Part shown: positions 1-23,453 of the stretch, in pieces
Numbering within the stretch: position 1 is the stretch's first letter
How the letters are laid out: each line of letters starts with the position of its first letter
Origin: a virus
Virus record (IMG/VR): IMGVR_UViG_3300007523_001081
Location: 1-26,036 of that record
DNA length: 26,036 bases
Strand: one strand, 5' to 3'
The notes under the pieces: generated by a model
The model's input: only the letters and a program-made list of their open reading frames with translations
Told to the model about the DNA's origin: nothing
Databases searched by the model: none
Translations under genes and position numbers: made by a program

Positions 1-2
1 AT

Positions 3-185
3 GGTTCTAAGGTTAGGCTTAACTATAAAGCCAAGGTGTTAGCTATTGGTCCAGATGTCACTAATATAAAAATAGATGACATTGTAATATTTAAATGGCA
101 TAATAACCAAGACACGGATCTAGAAGGTAAAAAATGTACCTTTATAGACATTGAAAAAGTGTTGTGCATATTAACAAATAACTAA
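3..185 (+). CDS. GroES/Cpn10-like co-chaperonin, C-terminal fragment
   Basis: An open frame enters from the left edge in frame 3 and stops at 183-185, giving 60 residues. It reads like the second half of a GroES-family protein: a strand VLAIGP, then a spacer and IKIDDIVIFKW (family form: VKVGDIVIF), a charged loop, and a C-terminal pair FIDIEKVLCIL matching the family's (Y/F)xIxxxxDILAxI ending. In the family this half completes the beta-barrel; the mobile loop that contacts the chaperonin would lie outside the window. Phage GroES homologues (T4 gp31 and others) help fold the major capsid protein with host GroEL, and a place upstream of head genes fits that. The start and mobile loop cannot be seen, so the call rests on pattern only. 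Confidence 0.68.
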   Translation, partial: GSKVRLNYKAKVLAIGPDVTNIKIDDIVIFKWHNNQDTDLEGKKCTFIDIEKVLCILTNN

Positions 186-1455: not shown

Positions 1456-3960
1456 ATGACAACGGGACAAACAAAGGGACAAACAACGGGACAAACAAAG
1501 GGAGATCTTAAAGGTTACGAAGCTTACAAGCAATACCATGAGCAAGATAAACAAAATGGTAGTAAATCTATAAAGAAAACAGACTTCAAGAAGATAGAAG
1601 AGATAAGAGATAAATTCACTCAAGCTAAAAGAGCAAGGCAAAACAATTGTTATTGGAACAATTACAATACTGATGGTGGAGATGGAGGAACTGGCGGCGA
1701 TTGGGAGAAGAGATGGGCAACAGATGAAAAGGCGAGGTATCAATGGGCAGCTAATACAGGAACAGATAATTATCAGAGCAATATAAAATCTCCAATGTCT
1801 ACGGGTCGTATTAATGCTTTTGTTAACGAATTTAAAAAACTAAATCTTGCATGGAACGCAAAGCCAAATAATGATGATGATAGGAATCAAGCTAGAGTAG
1901 CGTCTAAGGCTTTAGATTGGTGGTATCAGACAAGTAATGCAAAGACGGAGTTTGTTAAGGTAGCAGATAGCGCAGCAACATATGGTGCAGGATTTTTCAG
2001 AGTTTTTCATTTAGAAGAAAGCAGAGAGTATAGGTTTCCTAAAACAGATCCAGACAAGATGAGCGAAGAGGAAAAGGAAGAACTAAAAGAAGAAAGCAAA
2101 AGAAAGACATTATGGGGAGAGAAAGAAGAGGTAATAACTAAAGATGATATTGCAATTGAATATATACCTATTAGAGAGCTTTACCCTGACCCTAATGCAT
2201 GGTGTATACACGGGGTGACTAGAAGGGCTAGATTTGTTATTCGGAGAAGATTTGTGCATATTGACGACTTTAAAGCTATGTATGAGAGCAATCCAGATGC
2301 AAAGAATATAGATAACGTAAAAGCAGCTTCAACTTATATGAAGACAGATACATATGATTTTTTTAGAACGCCAGAGGATGTAATTGATAGCCAAAGTGTT
2401 GAACTGATTGAATATGAGAATCAATTAACAGATGAGTATATAGTACTTGCTAATGATATATTAATTATAAATACTCCATTACCATATAATCATAAAGAAA
2501 TAACTTATCATAAGGTGGATTTTATTAAGAACCCTAATCAATTTTACGGTATTGGAATCCCTGATTTATTAATGAACATTCAAGGTGCGCAAGAGATACT
2601 AGTAAATATGATGTATGATTATATTTATAGATCATATAACCTAAGGTATTTTATTGATGCAACATCATTTGGAGAATTAAGTGAAGAAATGGTGCGTACT
2701 GAATCACAATTAATACCGATTGATTTAAGCGATAATAGAGCTATTGGTCAAAAGGTACAACAATTAGTGACAGCACCAATAGGATTTGATGCATTTCAAT
2801 TAAATGATTTAACAGAAAGAAGTGCAACTATTGCTACTAGTATTGATCCTTCACAACTATCTTTATTAGCAGCCAATAAGACAGCCACAGCAACAATACA
2901 AAATAAAGAACAATTACAATCAATGATATTTGCAGTAATAGATAACTTTGTCAATGAGGGTTGGTTCTATAGTGGGCGGCAAGTATGGAAGTTAATGCAG
3001 CAAGTATGGAAGGTTCCGAAGATAAGAGGATTGATTGGAGAGAATAAAAAGCCTGAATATAAGAAAATAAGATTAGAAGGTATAGAGCTAACTCTTAACG
3101 AGGATTCTAAGGACTTAGAAGTACAAGAAAGTAATCAGGATTATACATTTTTCGAAATGACAGAAGAATATCTAAATACAACTAGTGAGCTAGATATAAT
3201 GATCAAACCAGACTCAATTGAAATTATGAGTAAATCGTTAGAGATGCAGAAGATGAAAGAAGAATTTGCACAATTAATTCCGTTCGCAGTAGATCCTAGT
3301 AATGCACAGGCTATGCAATCAAATCCTTTACCAATGGTTAGCGCACCTAAGTTATTCCAACGTTATTTTGATGTAGAAGGATTACCACAGGACTTACTAA
3401 TTCAGCCAGAGGTGAGAGAAGACCTTGAGATAAAGAAGGCAGAAGAACATATGACCAAAATACTAAAAGGTGAGAAAGTATCTGGAACACCAGGTGCATC
3501 TATAGCTCATAGAAAATTTGAATATAAGGTATTGTTTGCGATAGATGAGGAGATAAAGCAGATACAAGATGAAATTGATCAAGGAATAGTTACACAGATA
3601 AAACAGATTGAAGAAATAGTTGCACAAATGCCACCACAATTTGACCCGGCTACTGGTGAACCTATAGAACCACAAGTACCAGAACCAGAACCAGATGCAC
3701 AGTTATTAGCTAAATTGGAGAAACAAGAGAAGCTAAGAGGTGCTGTAGCTACTCATTTAGCAATAGAAAATATGCCAGCAGACCTAATAGATGAGAAAGT
3801 ATTAATGCCACCAGCGCCTCCAATGCCAGAAGCTCAAACACCACAAGCACCAATGCCACCAGGGGCTGATATGAACACGCCAATACCAAATGGAATGCCA
3901 GGTGATCCAAATGCAGTACCAATGCCTCAGCCTATGGGTGAAGGCATGCCAGTTATGTAA
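1456..3960 (+). CDS. Portal protein (P22-like type)
   Basis: 834 residues, the dodecameric channel at one capsid vertex through which DNA enters and leaves. After a Gly/Thr/Gln-rich N-tail with a tandem TGQTKGQT repeat, the region around residues 75-200 (NYQSNIKSPMSTGRINAFVN, AWNAKPNNDDDRNQARVA, then AATYGAGFFRVFH) follows the clip/wing order seen in P22-type portals. A long helical part follows (residues 480-680). The tail (about 690-834) has a Gln/Ile/Glu coiled coil and then a Pro/Met-rich ending (PMPEAQTPQAPMPPG). At 834 residues it is longer than P22 gp1 (about 725), as expected with these extra tails. It starts right after a terminator and has no Shine-Dalgarno. The next gene set (scaffold, capsid) supports the call; terminase is not in the window. 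Confidence 0.88.
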   Translation: MTTGQTKGQTTGQTKGDLKGYEAYKQYHEQDKQNGSKSIKKTDFKKIEEIRDKFTQAKRARQNNCYWNNYNTDGGDGGTGGDWEKRWATDEKARYQWAANTGTDNYQSNIKSPMSTGRINAFVNEFKKLNLAWNAKPNNDDDRNQARVASKALDWWYQTSNAKTEFVKVADSAATYGAGFFRVFHLEESREYRFPKTDPDKMSEEEKEELKEESKRKTLWGEKEEVITKDDIAIEYIPIRELYPDPNAWCIHGVTRRARFVIRRRFVHIDDFKAMYESNPDAKNIDNVKAASTYMKTDTYDFFRTPEDVIDSQSVELIEYENQLTDEYIVLANDILIINTPLPYNHKEITYHKVDFIKNPNQFYGIGIPDLLMNIQGAQEILVNMMYDYIYRSYNLRYFIDATSFGELSEEMVRTESQLIPIDLSDNRAIGQKVQQLVTAPIGFDAFQLNDLTERSATIATSIDPSQLSLLAANKTATATIQNKEQLQSMIFAVIDNFVNEGWFYSGRQVWKLMQQVWKVPKIRGLIGENKKPEYKKIRLEGIELTLNEDSKDLEVQESNQDYTFFEMTEEYLNTTSELDIMIKPDSIEIMSKSLEMQKMKEEFAQLIPFAVDPSNAQAMQSNPLPMVSAPKLFQRYFDVEGLPQDLLIQPEVREDLEIKKAEEHMTKILKGEKVSGTPGASIAHRKFEYKVLFAIDEEIKQIQDEIDQGIVTQIKQIEEIVAQMPPQFDPATGEPIEPQVPEPEPDAQLLAKLEKQEKLRGAVATHLAIENMPADLIDEKVLMPPAPPMPEAQTPQAPMPPGADMNTPIPNGMPGDPNAVPMPQPMGEGMPVM
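1462..1503 (+). repeat. 24-base tandem repeat in portal N-terminus
   Basis: Units at 1462-1485 and 1486-1503 (partial) encode TGQTKGQT and TGQTKG. They are in frame and nearly identical at base level, which suggests a slippage-made, probably disordered N-tail. Confidence 0.75.
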
Positions 3961-3983: not shown

Positions 3984-4055
3984 ATGAAATGTCCAAAATG
4001 TAAGAAAGAGATGAAAGGAAAGAAGTGTAAAAGTTGTGGTTCTACTAAGAAATAG
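3984..4055 (+). CDS. 23-residue zinc-ribbon microprotein
   Basis: A complete ATG-to-TAG frame of 24 codons between portal and the next gene. Its 23 residues carry C3xxC6 (CPKC) and C15xxC18G (CKSCG), the two knuckles of a zinc ribbon, with 11 Lys/Arg-type basic residues around them, almost nothing else. Four Cys in exact CxxC spacing within 23 residues are unlikely by chance. It is below most gene-finder length limits. Similar short zinc ribbons occur at the ends of larger proteins; here it stands alone. It could bind nucleic acid or join a head protein; no role can be shown. Confidence 0.68.
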   Translation: MKCPKCKKEMKGKKCKSCGSTKK

Positions 4056-4394: not shown

Positions 4395-4423
4395 TTGACA
4401 ATTATGTTTAAATAGTTTAAATT
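4395..4423 (+). promoter_or_regulatory. Sigma-70 promoter upstream of scaffold
   Basis: TTGACA (4395-4400), exactly 17 bases, TAAATT (4418-4423). Perfect -35 and a 5/6 fit to TATAAT counted loosely (4/6 strictly). The predicted start is near 4430. The promoter at 22430 has the same form (TTGACT-17-TAAATT). A terminator hairpin follows within 20 bases of the start. Confidence 0.78.
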
Positions 4424-4442
4424 GTTACAAAGTACAGATTAA

Positions 4443-4453
4443 CGGAACTACCG
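4443..4453 (+). promoter_or_regulatory. CGGAACTACCG element, copy 2
   Basis: Exact second copy of the 1391-1401 element; the flank also matches (ATTAtCGG there, ATTAaCGG here). It overlaps the left arm of the next terminator and lies about 13 bases after the predicted start of transcription. Confidence 0.5.
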
Positions 4454-4499
4454 AGATTGTACATTAGTTAAACAAGCTAATGTTTAATCTCGGTTTTTT
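4450..4499 (+). terminator. Two-stem intrinsic terminator ahead of scaffold
   Basis: Outer stem ACCGAGATT (4450-4458) with AATCTCGGT (4486-4494), 9 bp; GT/TT internal mismatch; inner stem ACATTAG (4461-4467) with CTAATGT (4477-4483), 7 bp; 9-base loop; then a T run to 4499. Same design as the terminator at 1400. Confidence 0.85.
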
Positions 4500-4545
4500 G
4501 TGTTCTACAAGAAACCTGTATTTTAACAAGTTAATATTCTGTACT

Positions 4546-5478
4546 ATGGAAGACCAAGACGGAAACGTTACTACTGACCCTGTAGCTGACTTTGTAGATA
4601 ACACTACAGATGACTATACAGATACTCAAGTAGAAAACGTGGAAACCTCCCCCACTGTTGATACTAGTGGATACGAGGATGCCGAGGATGCTGAGAATGT
4701 ATCACAGTCTGCCCCCGAAAATAACGGGATACCAGAAAAGCAAGCAGAAGCAGAAAGAAGAGAAGAGGGAAAACTCAGACAAGTTCAAAAGGAACTAGAA
4801 GAGTTAAGGGAAGTTAAAGCAAGATACGATGTTATTCAAAAAAATTCACAAGAAGATCCTGAGTTTTTTAAACAGGCTTTAATGAAGATAAACAAAGTAT
4901 CTGAACAAGACGCCCTTGCTACGATAAATGAACTACGTTCTCAAGGATTATGGAAGCAAGCACAACAAGTTGCGCAAGAAACACAACCAGGTATTCAGAC
5001 AACAATAGATCCAAATTTACTTGTTGAGATGGCTACACAACGTTTTGAGCAAAGACATGAGGCTAAAACGACATTAGAAGTTTTAATGTCTACATATCCT
5101 GAACTTGAAAGAACTGGCAAGTCTCAAGAGCAAATTATTGTTAATCAAAAGTTAATTGAGACAGCGGATTATCTAGCAAATGCAAAAATGCAGAAAGATC
5201 TTAAACTCAACAGAACTGAAGCAGTAATACAAGCTTATGGAGAAATTACAGGTAAAGCTGCTGCACAAGTAACTCAAGCTCGTGAGAATGGAAGATTAGA
5301 AGGACTAGCACAAGCAACAGCTAGAGCAGGTGCTTCAAGTACAGCTCCAGTTGGTCAGCAATCCTTAAAAACTTCTGTCAACCTAACCACACAGGAAAGG
5401 GCATATGCTCAAGCTATGAAAATGACTGACGAAGAATATTATAGGTTTGGACAGTCTAAGGAAACATACGCAGAGTAA
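4546..5478 (+). CDS. Scaffolding protein
   Basis: 310 residues. Scaffolds guide procapsid assembly on the inner face of the capsid and then leave. The start at 4546 is chosen because the in-frame ATG at 4480 lies inside the terminator hairpin, and the protein from 4546 begins with the acidic Met-Glu-Asp-Gln-Asp typical of scaffolds. Residues 1-75 are strongly acidic and disordered; 78-120 form a Glu/Lys/Arg coiled coil (AEAERREEGKLRQVQKELEE); the rest is helical and Gln/Ala-rich, with a basic-free tail. The family usually binds the capsid shell through a basic C-terminal helix; here the C-terminus is not clearly basic (ending QSKETYAE). Its place just before the capsid genes is strong support. 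Confidence 0.8.
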   Translation: MEDQDGNVTTDPVADFVDNTTDDYTDTQVENVETSPTVDTSGYEDAEDAENVSQSAPENNGIPEKQAEAERREEGKLRQVQKELEELREVKARYDVIQKNSQEDPEFFKQALMKINKVSEQDALATINELRSQGLWKQAQQVAQETQPGIQTTIDPNLLVEMATQRFEQRHEAKTTLEVLMSTYPELERTGKSQEQIIVNQKLIETADYLANAKMQKDLKLNRTEAVIQAYGEITGKAAAQVTQARENGRLEGLAQATARAGASSTAPVGQQSLKTSVNLTTQERAYAQAMKMTDEEYYRFGQSKETYAE

Positions 5479-6026: not shown

Positions 6027-7007
6027 ATGTCAACTTCAATTCCACCAATGTCAACACAGCAGTATTTAACTGCTCTTAACAGAGGTATTAGAAAACACTT
6101 TGTTGATGAATACAAAGCAAAAAGACCTAAATTAGAGAAACTCTTAACAGTAATGTCTCAAGAAGATTTCAATGAAGAGCACATGGATTATACAGGAGCT
6201 GGAACAATGCAAATTGTACCAGAAGGTACTAAATATCCAGTAAGCACATTACTAGAAGGTTACAAAACTACTTATGTTCCTCAAAAACTTGGTGATACTA
6301 TCCAAGTAACTTATGAAGTGCAAAAATGGGACAAATCGGGTTTAACTAAAGCAGAAAACATTGCAAAAGCGCAAGCTAAGCAAGTTACTAGAGAAATGGA
6401 AAGATTAGGCTCTTCTTTATTTAGAAATGGGTTTAACACAGCATATACATCATATGGAGATGCTAAACCATTATTTTCGACTTCTCATACAAGAACTGAT
6501 GGTGGTACAGCAGGATCTAATGCGTCAGCTAGTGGTTTAACACTAACAGCAGATAATCTTGATGAAGCTATCATTCAAATGAGAGAACAAAAAGACGGAA
6601 GAGGAGAATTAATCGAAACAATACCACAAATATTATTAGTACCGCCAAGACTTATGCAAGAAGCTTTAACTATAACAAAGTCAATGCAAAAATCAGGAAC
6701 AGCAAATAATGATACTAATGTATTCAAACTAAATGAATATGAAGGTGGAAATTTAAAAGTTATTGTCTGGGACTATTTAGCTACAGCGGCTGGTGGTTCT
6801 GATACAGCTTGGATGCTAATTGATCCAGAAGTAGCTAAATTGAATTGGTTATGGGCAGAAAGACCAAAGATTGGTGAAATGGATACATCAAATGGATTCT
6901 TAAATGACACTTACTACTGGAAAGTTATGTTCTATGCATCAATTGGATGGGACGACTGGAGGGGGACTTGGGCTAGTCAAGGTAATGGATTAACTTATAG
7001 TTCTTAA
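6027..7007 (+). CDS. Major capsid protein, HK97-fold type
   Basis: 326 residues. Landmarks in order: N-terminal helix with YLTALNRGIRKHFVDEY; a segment DYTGAGTMQIVPEGTKYP followed by TYVPQKLGDTIQVTYEV (N-arm/E-loop-like strands); GDAKPLFSTSHTRTDGG, then the LTADNLDEAIIQMREQKD helix; the ILLVPPRLMQEALTI motif (about residues 200-212), common in Mu gpT-like and related capsid proteins; and an aromatic ending with DTYYWKVMFYASIGWDDW. Length is in the usual 300-400 range. Scaffold and a small capsid protein precede it, and structured RNA follows. The GroES-like gene at the left edge may act on this protein, by analogy with T4 gp31. Confidence 0.88.
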   Translation: MSTSIPPMSTQQYLTALNRGIRKHFVDEYKAKRPKLEKLLTVMSQEDFNEEHMDYTGAGTMQIVPEGTKYPVSTLLEGYKTTYVPQKLGDTIQVTYEVQKWDKSGLTKAENIAKAQAKQVTREMERLGSSLFRNGFNTAYTSYGDAKPLFSTSHTRTDGGTAGSNASASGLTLTADNLDEAIIQMREQKDGRGELIETIPQILLVPPRLMQEALTITKSMQKSGTANNDTNVFKLNEYEGGNLKVIVWDYLATAAGGSDTAWMLIDPEVAKLNWLWAERPKIGEMDTSNGFLNDTYYWKVMFYASIGWDDWRGTWASQGNGLTYSS

Positions 7008-7903: not shown

Positions 7904-7935
7904 AATGGGGGGGAGTAAAACTCCCCATTATTTAG
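7904..7935 (+). terminator. G/C-rich terminator hairpin
   Basis: GGGGAGT (7910-7916) pairs with ACTCCCC (7920-7926) across an AAA loop, with AAT/ATT outside a GGG bulge. The following ATTATTTAG is U-rich but not a clean run, so readthrough into the next fibre genes is likely. It would tune the drop from capsid to fibre levels. Confidence 0.72.
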
Positions 7936-7951
7936 TTATTAAAAATTACAA

Positions 7952-8392
7952 ATGGCAGACGGGAGACAATCACAATTAATAGAGTTTAACAGTGCTACAA
8001 CTTATACACTTACAACCAGTTATGTTGCTTCAAATCCAATTAGAGCAGGTAAAGCTTATCAAGTAGGACTAGATATTAGTTATACTCAAGGAGCCGCAGA
8101 GACATCGAACACTTTAGATATTAAGATAGAAATTTCAAACGTAGACACAACACCTACAGCAACAGATTGGTTTCAAATGTCTAGTGAGTCTACATCTAGT
8201 GGATTAACTACATCTAGTTATCAAAATTATAGATTTACGGCAGTTGCTACAGCAGGAACAGCGGATAGATTCCATATCAGTTTTCCTATTGATGTTAAAT
8301 GGGTTAGAGTATCTGTTCTAGAGGGGGGCGTGGCAGCAAATGCAGGAACTTTTTTAGGACGATTAACAGTAAGTGAAAATTTTGGAGGTTAA
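7952..8392 (+). CDS. Small beta-sandwich virion protein, unknown
   Basis: 146 residues, Thr/Ser/Ala-rich, with alternating strands (RAGKAYQVGLDISYTQ, TLDIKIEISNVD, RFHISFPIDVKWVRVSVLEG). It begins 20-odd bases after the terminator and ends just before a tail-fibre-like gene. This looks like a compact single-domain beta-sandwich such as fibre-tip or head-attached proteins. No known family is apparent, and it is not clearly related to the 7116 protein beyond composition. Confidence 0.68.
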   Translation: MADGRQSQLIEFNSATTYTLTTSYVASNPIRAGKAYQVGLDISYTQGAAETSNTLDIKIEISNVDTTPTATDWFQMSSESTSSGLTTSSYQNYRFTAVATAGTADRFHISFPIDVKWVRVSVLEGGVAANAGTFLGRLTVSENFGG

Positions 8393-10756: not shown

Positions 10757-11689
10757 ATGGGATTAACATTCGATCAACTAAAAAAGAAAGTAGGGAAAAA
10801 TTTAAAATATTACAGTGATGTAGATGGCTGGAAAACTAGCCGGGATGTCACAGAAACAGATATAGGTGATTTTATTAATGAAATATACCGAGATATTATA
10901 TTTCCACAATTTGCAACACAATACCCTGCTGATTTTAAACAAACAGCCTATACAGACAGTCACATAGTAACGGCAACTGTTGATGCAAGCTCAACAGCCT
11001 CTACATTAGTTGCTACGTCATCTATATTTACTAATGGTATGGTAGGATTAAACGTTTATAACTCAACAGACAGTGAGAGCCTAGTTATAAGCGGTTATAC
11101 AAATGCAACAACAATTACATTAGAATCTGCAATTAACAATACTTGGGACGGTGATACTATATATGTATTAGGAAAAGAGTTTACATTAGGTGGAGATGCA
11201 TCAGATTTATACGTGGTAGAGACTGTAGGGGTTAAATATGATATCAATGATGGTTATTTCAGACAAGCCGAGAGAAGGTTAGAAAATGATTTTTTTCAGA
11301 ATGGCAATGAATCAGGCTATAGAGTTACACCGAGCTTTTATACAACAACAATAACAGTAGCTGGAGTAGCTACAAGCGCTATAGGGATTATCCCACAATT
11401 TACAACAAAAATAGATAAAGGATTACAAATTACATATGTTAGAAAACCAGCTGTTTTAACTCTTTCGGGTGATGTATTAAAGTTACCAGTTGATACACCA
11501 GTTGTTTATGGAGCAACTGCAAGGGCTTATGAGATGAAACGGGAATTTCAGGAATCTGGTTACTGGACTACTAAATTTGAGATGGAAAAGAAACGTTCAA
11601 TCAGCCAGTATAGACCACTTAGCTCAGGCAGAGACCTAACACTTAAAATACCTAGAAGGTATGGAAATATTTTTTATAGAAATAGATAA
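10757..11689 (+). CDS. Head-tail adaptor (P22 gp4 / T7 gp11-like) with inserted module
   Basis: 310 residues from the ATG at 10757, chosen because the in-frame ATG at 10724 is inside the previous gene and MGLTFDQLKKKVG is a typical adaptor start. Helices at 1-60 (DIGDFINEIYRDIIFPQF) and at 245-290 (LPVDTPVVYGATARAYEMKRE, partly) match the helix bundle of short-tail adaptors. Residues 72-138 are an insert that also occurs in the propeller protein at 16636 and is near-identical in DNA. The protein would bind under the portal. The following gene overlaps by one base (TAATG). Adaptor identity is inferred from order and helix pattern. Confidence 0.7.
   Translation: MGLTFDQLKKKVGKNLKYYSDVDGWKTSRDVTETDIGDFINEIYRDIIFPQFATQYPADFKQTAYTDSHIVTATVDASSTASTLVATSSIFTNGMVGLNVYNSTDSESLVISGYTNATTITLESAINNTWDGDTIYVLGKEFTLGGDASDLYVVETVGVKYDINDGYFRQAERRLENDFFQNGNESGYRVTPSFYTTTITVAGVATSAIGIIPQFTTKIDKGLQITYVRKPAVLTLSGDVLKLPVDTPVVYGATARAYEMKREFQESGYWTTKFEMEKKRSISQYRPLSSGRDLTLKIPRRYGNIFYRNR
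10973..11010 (+). repeat. 38-base exact repeat, copy 1 (shared module)
   Basis: 38 bases identical to 17092-17129. A second shared block follows at 11127-11157 (2 mismatches in 31 to 17246-17276). Together they bound a module of about 66 residues in the adaptor and the propeller protein. Confidence 0.93.
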
Positions 11690-13056: not shown

Positions 13057-13766
13057 TGAGTAAACTAGACGACATGATACGTAACGCACAACAACAAATG
13101 CAAGGGCAACAACAAGTGCAAGGGCAACAACAAATGCAACAACAAATGCAACAACAAATGCAAGCTCAAGAAAAGCAAGCTATTCAACAAGAGCTTACAC
13201 GAAGGAGAGAAGTAGCAAATAAGCCTAAAACTTCATATAAGTTTGGACAGTTGGACTTAGGTGAGAATCAGTTTAACCAATTAAAACAAATAGCCACTTT
13301 AGGTTCTATGGGCTTAGTAGACGATAGAGCAGCGCAACAAATGATTACAGGGGCATTAATGCAACCACAAGAAAGCTTTTTAGATAAACTGCTAGGAGGT
13401 GGAGAAGGTAGCAAAAATCCTATGGACAATTATTCTACATCTGATTTATCACAGATGTATAACGATAACAGTGGAGCCAGTACGCCAGACTATGGAAATT
13501 TAGAAATTGAGATTCCAACAACAACAACAGATAGAGTGAAATCTATAGGCAATGTGTTGGCTTACCCTGCGAAGGTCGTAGAATCATTGGGAGACGTATA
13601 TGCTAGCGGAAGAGAAGTGAAGAAAGCAAGAACAAAATTTAATTCTAAACCACGAAAGACTTTTGAAGAAATAAATGCAGTGAGAGCATCAACAGGATAT
13701 GCTCCGATAAATAGAGACGATTACGATAGGGCACAGCTAAGCGCATTTAAGGCTTCGAAGTACTAA
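13056..13766 (+). CDS. Gln-rich virion protein, possible ejection protein
   Basis: 236 residues. Residues 9-50 are a poly-Gln/Met stretch (QQQMQGQQQVQGQQQMQQQ) that comes from a short CAACAAATG-type repeat in DNA. A helical region follows (RAAQQMITGALMQPQESFLDKLLGG, about 90-115), then a Lys/Arg-rich C-terminal helix region (KKARTKFNSKPRKTFEEINA). Overlap with the gene before is TAATG. It lies directly before the large 947-residue protein, as expected for a set injected with DNA. Family is not recognised. Confidence 0.66.
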   Translation: MSKLDDMIRNAQQQMQGQQQVQGQQQMQQQMQQQMQAQEKQAIQQELTRRREVANKPKTSYKFGQLDLGENQFNQLKQIATLGSMGLVDDRAAQQMITGALMQPQESFLDKLLGGGEGSKNPMDNYSTSDLSQMYNDNSGASTPDYGNLEIEIPTTTTDRVKSIGNVLAYPAKVVESLGDVYASGREVKKARTKFNSKPRKTFEEINAVRASTGYAPINRDDYDRAQLSAFKASKY

Positions 13767-16635: not shown

Positions 16636-18333
16636 ATGGCAGTACTTACGTTAAATGATCTAAGTGGTTCTATTAATCATAGGTCACCAGGATTGTTAGA
16701 AAACAATCAGTTTGAACTACTGCTTAACACTTCACAAGCACAAGTAGGAAATACTGCACATAGGCTAGGTTCACAGCTATTTTTAAACGCTATATCAACT
16801 GGAGCTAATCCAATTAGAGGCCTAGGAGAATTTATAAAATCAGATAACACAACCTTTTTACATACAGTATGTCAAGGTACTTTATATGTAAATGGTGTGG
16901 GCACGTGGACCTCACAAGCAGCAAGTGAGTGGAATACAAGCAGTGAGATTGATATGGATAATTATATAGGGAGACATTACATGGCAAGTTCTACAGCTTT
17001 AGAATGGCTAAGATATTTTACAGAAACAGGAGCAAGCATATTTGCAAAAGTCTGGTTTCCTTTAGCTGCTACAGGTGCAGGAAGAAATACAGCAACTGTT
17101 GATGCAAGCTCAACAGCCTCTACATTAGTAACTACTGAAAGTATATTTACGGCCGAGATGGTAGGGATGACAATATTTAATACAACAGATACCACTAGCA
17201 ATATAATCACAGCCTATACAAGCGGTACAACAGTTACGGTAGGAACTGCAATTAATAATACTTGGGACGGTGACACAGTAGAGATGAGAATTGACGGCAA
17301 ATATTTAGCAGTTAATGGTGCTTATATGTTACTAGGCGGTAATTCAGTTTATCCTAGAAGAGTATATTATAGTCAAGTAGCACAAGGAGACTTTGCAGTT
17401 AGTACAGACTATTTTGAATCCTCGCAGTCAATAACAGGGGTTACATCATTTGGGAATGGAAGACCATTTGTAGCATTCTCTAATAATACTTATTTAGTGT
17501 TAGATCCACAATCAGTATATGTTAATGAAGTTACTGATTATGGATGCACATCTAATAAATCGATAGTCAATATAAAAGGAAATATAATCTGGTTAGGACA
17601 AGGGGGGTTTTATATGTTAAGCCCTAATCAATCTTACCCCACAGACATATCCTTAGTAATTAAGAATGATCAAACACATGATGATTTATTTTATGCAATA
17701 ACACAGAGTAATTTTATACTAGCAGCAGCAGGGGGTTTAGATGAAAGATATTTTTGTGCGTTACAAGATCTAAGTATAAATGTGAGGGGGCAAGATATAG
17801 ATTCATGTGTTTTAGAGTTTGATGCTAGTCAAAATAACTGGAAAATCCATTCATATTCAGCAGGAAAATTGGGTAGCATCTTTGCAAATTTTACGGACAC
17901 AACGGGTAAATATTTATATGCTGGAAGCTATACTAATGGTGGTGTTTTCAAATTAGAGATACCATCACTCTACACAGATAAAGATATAAATGATTCTACA
18001 AATACGATAAATTCTATAACACAAACAAAACATTACAGATTTTATGATAAAGGAGACAGTGCAATAAGAATGCAAAATGTATTGAAATTACACTTTCAAT
18101 ATTATTCTGCAAGTACAATAACCGTAAAGTATGCTTTAGATGGTAGTAGTACATATACTACATTAACAACATTACCTGCATACACAGCAACCCGGTGGAA
18201 CTGGGAATATATGGATCTTGGAGAAGAGTGCAAAAGTATTAGTTTACAATTAGAAACTTTAGGTAACTTTATTATGTATGCGCTTGGTTTTGAATTGCAA
18301 ACACAAGCCGCAGAAGGTATCAAAGGGCGTTAA
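16636..18333 (+). CDS. P22 gp10-like beta-propeller (tail hub/DNA-stabilising) protein
   Basis: 565 residues. The N-terminus (LSGSINHRSPGLLENNQFEL) and the GLGEFIKSDNTTFLHTVCQG strands are typical of P22 gp10-type phage stabilisation proteins and T7-like tube proteins. Residues 225-480 alternate strands: RRVYYSQVAQGDF, then FGNGRPFVAFSNNTYLVL, GNIIWLGQGGFYMLSP, CVLEFDASQNNWKIHSY, a propeller-blade pattern. Residues 152-218 are the module shared with the adaptor. The protein would form the tail hub that holds packaged DNA. It starts two bases after the previous stop. Propeller fold is read from blade-like repeats; confidence is good. Confidence 0.78.
   Translation: MAVLTLNDLSGSINHRSPGLLENNQFELLLNTSQAQVGNTAHRLGSQLFLNAISTGANPIRGLGEFIKSDNTTFLHTVCQGTLYVNGVGTWTSQAASEWNTSSEIDMDNYIGRHYMASSTALEWLRYFTETGASIFAKVWFPLAATGAGRNTATVDASSTASTLVTTESIFTAEMVGMTIFNTTDTTSNIITAYTSGTTVTVGTAINNTWDGDTVEMRIDGKYLAVNGAYMLLGGNSVYPRRVYYSQVAQGDFAVSTDYFESSQSITGVTSFGNGRPFVAFSNNTYLVLDPQSVYVNEVTDYGCTSNKSIVNIKGNIIWLGQGGFYMLSPNQSYPTDISLVIKNDQTHDDLFYAITQSNFILAAAGGLDERYFCALQDLSINVRGQDIDSCVLEFDASQNNWKIHSYSAGKLGSIFANFTDTTGKYLYAGSYTNGGVFKLEIPSLYTDKDINDSTNTINSITQTKHYRFYDKGDSAIRMQNVLKLHFQYYSASTITVKYALDGSSTYTTLTTLPAYTATRWNWEYMDLGEECKSISLQLETLGNFIMYALGFELQTQAAEGIKGR
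17092..17129 (+). repeat. 38-base exact repeat, copy 2 (shared module)
   Basis: Identical to 10973-11010 and in the same reading frame (ATVDASSTASTLV). The second block at 17246-17276 matches 11127-11157 with 2 mismatches. Confidence 0.93.
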
Positions 18334-22516: not shown

Positions 22517-22560
22517 AAGGAGGGTACAGTTTTTCCCACAGATTTCGCTGTACTCTCCTT
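22517..22560 (+). promoter_or_regulatory. 13-bp leader hairpin with buried SD-like sequence
   Basis: Left arm 22517-22529 pairs with right arm 22548-22560: 13 bp with one G-U and an 18-base loop. The left arm contains the ideal Shine-Dalgarno TAAGGAGG (22516-22523), but no start codon follows it within 15 bases. The loop has TTTCCCACA, one mismatch from the DnaA box form TTWTNCACA. No T run follows, so it is not a plain terminator. Confidence 0.6.
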
Positions 22561-22583
22561 TAGGTAGCGTTACAACATCTTCT

Positions 22584-23453
22584 ATGGATATAAAAATACA
22601 GCAGTTTTACCAAGATCAATTAAAGACCACGAATACTAAATCGCAACGAGATGCAACAGACTTTGTAAGGACAATTAATATCCCTACAATGACATTAAAA
22701 GATCCTTTCTTAAAATTTACAGAAAAGGCTCTTATAGGAATAATATACAGCTTTGTAAGCAACAAGCGTAAAATGTTTGCAAGTAACAGATTCTTAGCGG
22801 CTAGTTTAGGCTTGCTAAATCCACTTAGTGTCACAAATTTACTAACAGGGCTAGAACAAAAAGGGTACATTGTAAGAATTTATGCTGATAAGAATAAATA
22901 TGTGAGAGAAAGTATTACACTATCTAGCGAATATTTTTTATTGATACATGGTATAGATGCTACAGATGCTATTTTTCCGCAATCTACTGACAGGCAAGCT
23001 AATGACACTGTAAATAATGGTAGTAAAGGGGTATATGAAACAATGGGGGGGGATACATTAAAAAATGGTAGGGGGGATACATTAAAAAATGTACATACTA
23101 AACAAGGTATTACTAAACAAATTACTAAAAGAAGCAATTTTTCAAAAAAAACAAAGGCTGCAACTCCCTCAAAGATTACAAAATACAATAGAACACAAAA
23201 GGACTACTTAAGTATTGTTAATAGTTTGAATTTAATTAAATATGAAATATCCATTAATCTTGTTGATAGATACTATGAGAAAGTACAAACATACATGGAA
23301 AGCAGCGGCAAAAGATATAAGAATCATATAGCAGCTATACGAAACTTTATGATAAAAGATGTTGAAGCTAAAAAGTTTCCTGCCCAATATAACCCAATGG
23401 AACACATTAGAAGAATCTTTACAGAATTAGAAACTGTCAAACTACCTAAGTAA
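22584..23453 (+). CDS. Phage replication initiator (O/DnaD-like winged helix)
   Basis: 289 residues. Residues 45-115 fit a winged helix: KALIGIIYSFVSNKRKMFAS, the helix SNRFLAASLGL, the recognition-type helix PLSVTNLLTGLEQKGYIVRI, then wing strands. Residues 135-200 are a Gly/Thr/Lys-rich linker containing two near-identical segments (GGDTLKN, GRGDTLKN) whose DNA forms iteron-like repeats. The C-terminal domain (205-289) is helical and basic. This is the plan of lambda O and DnaD-type initiators; the next gene is the matching ATPase. It follows its own promoter and leader hairpin. Confidence 0.72.
   Translation: MDIKIQQFYQDQLKTTNTKSQRDATDFVRTINIPTMTLKDPFLKFTEKALIGIIYSFVSNKRKMFASNRFLAASLGLLNPLSVTNLLTGLEQKGYIVRIYADKNKYVRESITLSSEYFLLIHGIDATDAIFPQSTDRQANDTVNNGSKGVYETMGGDTLKNGRGDTLKNVHTKQGITKQITKRSNFSKKTKAATPSKITKYNRTQKDYLSIVNSLNLIKYEISINLVDRYYEKVQTYMESSGKRYKNHIAAIRNFMIKDVEAKKFPAQYNPMEHIRRIFTELETVKLPK
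23028..23091 (+). repeat. Iteron-like direct repeats inside the initiator gene
   Basis: A 21-base sequence GGGGGGATACATTAAAAAAT+G occurs at 23047-23067 and 23071-23091 (24-base period, identical). A weaker copy (15 of 18 aligned bases) is at 23028-23045. The short repeat TACTAAACAA at 23097-23106 and 23111-23120 and an A-rich run follow. This is like the origin inside lambda O. Confidence 0.55.

Follow-up and report, generated by a model that had tools for sequence, protein, structure and literature searches.

The question raised by positions 4395-4545 of this DNA is whether a promoter-like sequence followed closely by a terminator constitutes a regulated leader for the capsid genes of the phage. 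The stretch analysed, hereafter the window, comes from an uncultured tailed phage; this fragment of 26,036 bases represents the entire record. On its plus strand, the portal protein gene (1456-3960; phrog_1216, PF23899) precedes a scaffold-like gene of 310 aa (4546-5478) and, downstream in the same gene block, the gene for the major capsid protein (6027-7007; phrog_371, PF25209). The scaffold-like gene was without family match and was called from its place ahead of the capsid genes and from its acidic, charged sequence; its start was set at the ATG at 4546, the ORF start assigned mechanically (4480) falling within the terminator. Five near-identical viral contigs were found, one of which (L006) showed the small and large terminase subunits upstream. 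No genomes 50-90% identical to the phage were found in the viral collection, the nearest other phages in it having large terminases 29-34% identical and capsid proteins 24-34% identical, and a search of phage records with the portal matched nothing. None of the 28 gene starts in the window carried a Shine-Dalgarno sequence, the starts being A/T-rich. Such absence is typical of Bacteroidota (PMC6847099), and the host is therefore probably a member of this phylum.

Several other features of the fragment were recorded. A probable GroES-like co-chaperonin gene, read from position and sequence, adjoins the terminase in L006 (2245-2535), its end corresponding to window positions 1-185, and distant relatives have annotated GroES genes close to their capsid genes. 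Between the portal gene and a 104-aa gene, an unlisted tiny ORF (3984-4055) encodes a 23-residue CxxC...CxxC peptide, MKCPKCKKEMKGKKCKSCGSTKK. A GC-rich hairpin lies in the gap past the capsid region (7904-7929), with counterparts at a similar place in two distant relatives (L005 8833-8887, L087 9330-9384). A segment repeated in two genes (10970-11157 and 17089-17276, DNA 76-82% identical) was read as a duplicated domain that both structural proteins possess. Finally, a long near-perfect inverted repeat, AAGGAGGGTACAG...CTGTACTCTCCTT (about 22520-22575), immediately precedes the helix-turn-helix gene at 22584 and may be an operator or a terminator.

The first-pass annotation had described a strong terminator ending at 4499, and the folding data agreed fully with this description. 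The intrinsic terminator (4450-4499, plus strand) consists of a hairpin of 10 + 9 bp with a 1x1 internal loop (4450-4494) and a U-tract (4494-4499, U6). RNA 4430-4500 folded at -25.4 kcal/mol (z -6.1), a value that none of 200 shuffles equalled, and the terminator is thus strong beyond chance. A rule-based terminator scan missed it, its stem being AT-rich, and listed instead an overlapping hairpin at 4492-4516; this second hairpin, GGUUUUUUGUG-UUC-UACAAGAAACC, is predicted to sequester the U-tract in readthrough RNA. The sole change between the terminators of the window and of L022 lies in the loop (4473, C to A). The readthrough RNA 4430-4546 gave a z of -7.8, with a predicted stem reaching up to the start codon, in which GUUAAUAUUCUGUACU (4530-4545) is complementary to the 5' end of the leader (4431-4443; duplex p 0.02). 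This pairing was absent in most relatives and was dropped as main evidence for that reason.

The promoter was less convincing than initially stated. A sigma-70-like sequence is present at 4395-4423, composed of TTGACA (4395-4400), a 17-nt spacer and TAAATT (4418-4423), with 10 of 12 positions matching and a predicted start at about 4430. The coordinates and the match given at first, for a near-consensus promoter starting near 4430, were thus retained; its strength was not. Promoter-like sites showed no enrichment in this AT-rich window (57 found against 78 expected from shuffles), and a match as good within the 180 nt ahead of the scaffold ATG had a p of 0.06, so that taken by itself the match is near chance and the sequence alone is no proof. 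Bacteroidota promoters are unlike TTGACA/TATAAT, and the lack of Shine-Dalgarno sequences, which fits such a host, weakens the claim further. Promoters of Bacteroidota type (TTG-N17-23-TAnnTTTG) were not clearly enriched either, with none in the intergenic regions concerned.

These observations lend some weight to ordinary punctuation, whereby the terminator would simply end the upstream packaging and portal genes, the scaffold promoter would lie downstream or elsewhere, and TTGACA would be there by chance. A candidate TTG-N18-TATTTTAA starting at 4498, the equal of the upstream promoter by the Bacteroidota consensus, is in keeping with such an arrangement. On the other hand, no sigma-70-like promoter was found between the terminator and the scaffold ATG, and the fact that the promoter comes first, with the terminator after it, speaks against a plain insulator. 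This order is rare in background sequence: 574 kb of other viral loci yielded it 0.06 times per 10 kb per strand, and shuffled windows 0.1 times each. At that rate one chance case in 26 kb is possible, and comparative evidence therefore weighs more. Since the same order and spacing were found again in six other lineages, punctuation alone appears an unlikely explanation.

These six lineages are distant from the phage, their TerL or capsid proteins sharing about 30% identity with its own where compared. With distances counted from the scaffold ATG, their promoters lie 138-155 nt upstream and their terminators 51-64 nt upstream, compared with -151 and -52 in the window. The respective values are -155 and -64 in L079, -144 and -51 in L482 (the same contig as L076), -152 and -62 in L486, -146 (a weak match) and -56 in L488, -146 and -57 in L492, and -138 and -52 in L106. 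Three further lineages (L484, L487 and L490) had no terminator and carried a TTGAC promoter at -95 to -108, about 50 nt nearer the gene, a shift that would match the lack of a cassette of this size. The distance scan gave no site in L483, L485 and L491, and in a wider survey of 81 capsid-relative loci a terminator before the scaffold gene was found in a minority. The leader architecture therefore appears recurrent and position-specific, but not universal.

The elements filling this architecture differed between lineages. L079 and L482, which belong to a terminase-related lineage, carry TTGACA-17 promoters with TAGAAT, TAAAAT or TATTAT, followed by a hairpin and T6-T7. One such leader directly precedes the small terminase subunit gene, and another lies immediately in front of the scaffold gene. 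The hairpin and box are common to both leaders, a parallel to the two motif copies of the window described below. The hairpin has an A-rich loop and a variable stem (GCGGA/TCCGC, ACTAG/CTAGT, GCGGG/CCCGC, GCGG/CCGC, CCAG/CTGG; pairs picked by eye from the alignment). Capsid relatives of L079/L482 at 59-67% identity (L486, L488/L489 and L492) have a promoter and a terminator before the scaffold gene. So do L106/L108, related by the window's own capsid protein, before the gene in scaffold position. What recurs across phages is thus an architecture with lineage-specific elements. Comparison of the 4395-4500 unit with other phages accordingly gave a divided outcome: its geometry was kept in six lineages, its sequence only in near-identical contigs.

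Two other leaders seen during this comparison are worth recording. In L170, from the set related to the window by capsid protein, a highly structured leader has its terminator 62 nt before the gene in scaffold position and a promoter match further upstream; besides this terminator, the leader (1890-2084, -42 kcal/mol) contains long hairpins that compete with one another, and it resembles an attenuator of riboswitch style. L482 contains a third leader (13524-13674), made of a promoter, a GTGAATTAGAAGG box and a terminator, about 5.5 kb past the start of the capsid gene.

Within the window, a second line of evidence came from the motif CGGAACTACCG, which forms a CGG-AACUA-CCG mini-hairpin. It occurs exactly twice on the plus strand, upstream of the portal gene as copy 1 (1391-1401) and upstream of the scaffold gene as copy 2 (4443-4453), and nowhere else even at one mismatch (0.03 expected at up to 1). 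The label 'copy 2' given to the leader was therefore correct, as both copies run directly into a terminator hairpin and a T-run, the 5' arm of which uses part of the motif's CCG. The terminator of copy 1 (1400-1443) comprises a hairpin at 1400-1435 and a T-run at 1437-1443 (-15.1 kcal/mol, z -3.3 to -4.0). No sigma-70-like promoter matching at least 9 of 12 positions was found at copy 1, where polymerase therefore probably arrives from upstream. The two hairpins differ in sequence, which means that recent duplication of a whole unit is not enough to explain the shared 11-mer. A longest-shared-word test on the two leaders gave a p of 0.03, weakened by the ease with which AT-rich words match.

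Both copies may also take part in alternative structures. In nascent RNA of copy 2, a possible antiterminator hairpin (GUACAGAU..CGG AACUA CCG..AUUGUAC; 4432-4462, -7.4 kcal/mol) is predicted for transcripts ending at about 4462-4486, and a hairpin of the same architecture is possible at copy 1 (1382-1409, -4.7 kcal/mol). The outer stems differ in sequence between the copies and pair in both. In the nascent-RNA fold traces of both copies, the motif hairpin appears first and is later displaced by the terminator. Against shuffled flanks, the hairpin of copy 2 reached a p of 0.02 (dinucleotide) or 0.09-0.11 (mononucleotide), and that of copy 1, at 0.26, was not beyond chance. The predicted antiterminator hairpins are weak and outcompeted by the terminator at equilibrium, and the available homologues of the leader are near-identical contigs, which offer no covariation set. 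Modelling thus suggests, on statistically weak grounds, that both leaders hold a mutually exclusive antiterminator/terminator pair operating through the 5' arm of the terminator.

The combination of CGGAACTACCG and a terminator was also considered as a cross-phage motif family, but its excess over controls was not significant and no family is claimed. In the scan of viral contigs, the motif was joined to a good terminator in three other phages, located before the small terminase subunit gene (L220), before a T4-like portal gene (L176/L192) and after the capsid gene (L246). The reverse-complement control returned a similar total of sites but no terminator as strong. In bacterial genomes, the combination occurred at a chance-like level (about 3/119). 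In the T4-like L192 (minus strand, 8328-8373), the same 11-mer precedes a terminator that adjoins the portal gene on its upstream side. This arrangement may be due to chance; base pairing would be possible between AGCGGA, located in the motif region, and TCCGCT in the arm of the terminator.

The first-pass annotation had also suggested that the unit may produce a small regulatory RNA. A promoter and a terminator do delimit a discrete short transcript, and the terminated RNA of 65-70 nt might act in trans. However, the leader had no match to the Rfam 15 covariance models at gathering score, recurrence of the motif with a terminator in other viruses or bacterial genomes was not significant, and the leader sequence differs between lineages while the geometry is kept, the RNA sequence being unconserved beyond near-identical contigs. 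This suggestion found no support of its own, and a trans-acting RNA seems very improbable.

Another possibility is an unregulated partial terminator that would let through a fixed fraction of polymerases, or stabilise the 5' end of the capsid mRNA, with neither switch nor factor. The weakness of the predicted antiterminator pairing would be in line with this, as would the several related phages possessing the promoter and lacking the terminator, in which regulation would be dispensable. Conversely, a fixed leak does not account well for a motif common to two leaders, nor for the hairpin and box sequences that the terminase and capsid leaders of L079/L482 have in common, and the U6-U7 tracts and stems of -12 to -24 kcal/mol resemble those of efficient terminators. 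We regard such a partial terminator as rather improbable, though somewhat less so than simple punctuation.

The best explanation treats 4395-4545 as a leader of the scaffold/capsid block that undergoes prompt attenuation and is released by antitermination, a reading to which we assign a probability of roughly 0.52. From the promoter match, the terminator, the repeated motif and the geometry conserved in relatives, all of which are seen in the sequence, we infer promoter use, efficient termination, regulated readthrough and binding of the element by a trans-acting factor. RNA polymerase would start near 4430 and stop by default at 4494-4499, releasing an RNA of about 65-70 nt, and expression of the capsid genes would require that it be induced to pass this point. 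The CGG-AACUA-CCG element, situated between start and terminator and overlapping the 5' arm of the latter, is the likely cis signal, and a phage protein or a modified host polymerase would bind to it. As this element is repeated in the portal leader, one factor could release both blocks. The best support for regulated readthrough appears to be the comparative geometry across lineages; against it stand the absence of a terminator at this place in most capsid relatives and the promoter alone in some relatives of the TerL lineage. The initial proposal of an attenuated leader under antitermination was thus strengthened by this geometry, by the motif in two leaders and by the mutually exclusive predicted structures, while its promoter component lost ground.

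This arrangement recalls known systems. In phage lambda, the late-gene promoter pR' is followed, within a leader of about 194 nt, by the terminator tR', passed only by modified polymerase, and most of what is known of lambda-type antitermination at late genes comes from lambdoid phages and a handful of mobile elements. As for Q, Q21 and Q82, the phage locus shows a promoter (by sequence match), a close intrinsic terminator and structural genes downstream; unlike lambda, its leader measures about 65-70 nt and precedes the scaffold gene, and the motif has a further copy upstream of the portal gene. A convincing homologue of Q, whose antitermination mechanism has been described (PMC7171158, PMC6606751), was not found either: in ten relative records, all fragments, family PF06530 gave no match above cut-off and one below it, with an internal stop. 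NusG-like PF02357 was absent from the same ten fragmentary records, and Pfam searches with ten genes of the window turned up no hit to an antiterminator.

In Pseudomonas aeruginosa, AlpA loads at a promoter and allows bypass of an intrinsic terminator located just past it (PMC9371919, PMC7969949), a similar layout, although AlpA governs a programmed cell death pathway and not capsid genes. The put RNA of HK022, a structured leader of about 70 nt past a phage promoter, with two related copies per genome (PMC9378689), resembles the present leader in length and in the two motif copies of the window. The put element differs in fold and sequence, consisting of two stem-loops that suppress downstream terminators without a phage protein, whereas the element of the window lies partly within its own terminator, the leader to 4500 forming one long terminator hairpin instead of a two-stem domain. 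The conAn system of Gram-positive conjugation operons, an RNA element and a protein at the operon start (PMC8955417), shares with our proposal an RNA element acting at that position; it belongs to plasmid conjugation, and here the terminator lies within the leader itself. As put and conAn illustrate, RNA elements within a leader are likewise capable of bringing about antitermination. The phage leader may work like the lambda Q or AlpA systems, as a functional analogue and not as an assigned member of any of the systems described.

A broader reading, which we offer tentatively and consider doubtful as a whole, would place the capsid operons of several non-lambdoid lineages under recurrent promoter-proximal attenuator leaders, each with its own RNA element (CGGAACUACCG here, the A-rich-loop hairpin and the GAATTAGAA box in L079/L482), an undiscovered antitermination factor freeing two structural blocks together. 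The presence of a terminator at the same pre-scaffold place in several unrelated environmental lineages suggests that capsid attenuation may be more widespread, and these leaders, motifs and spacings could be used for tests and as bait for antitermination factors.
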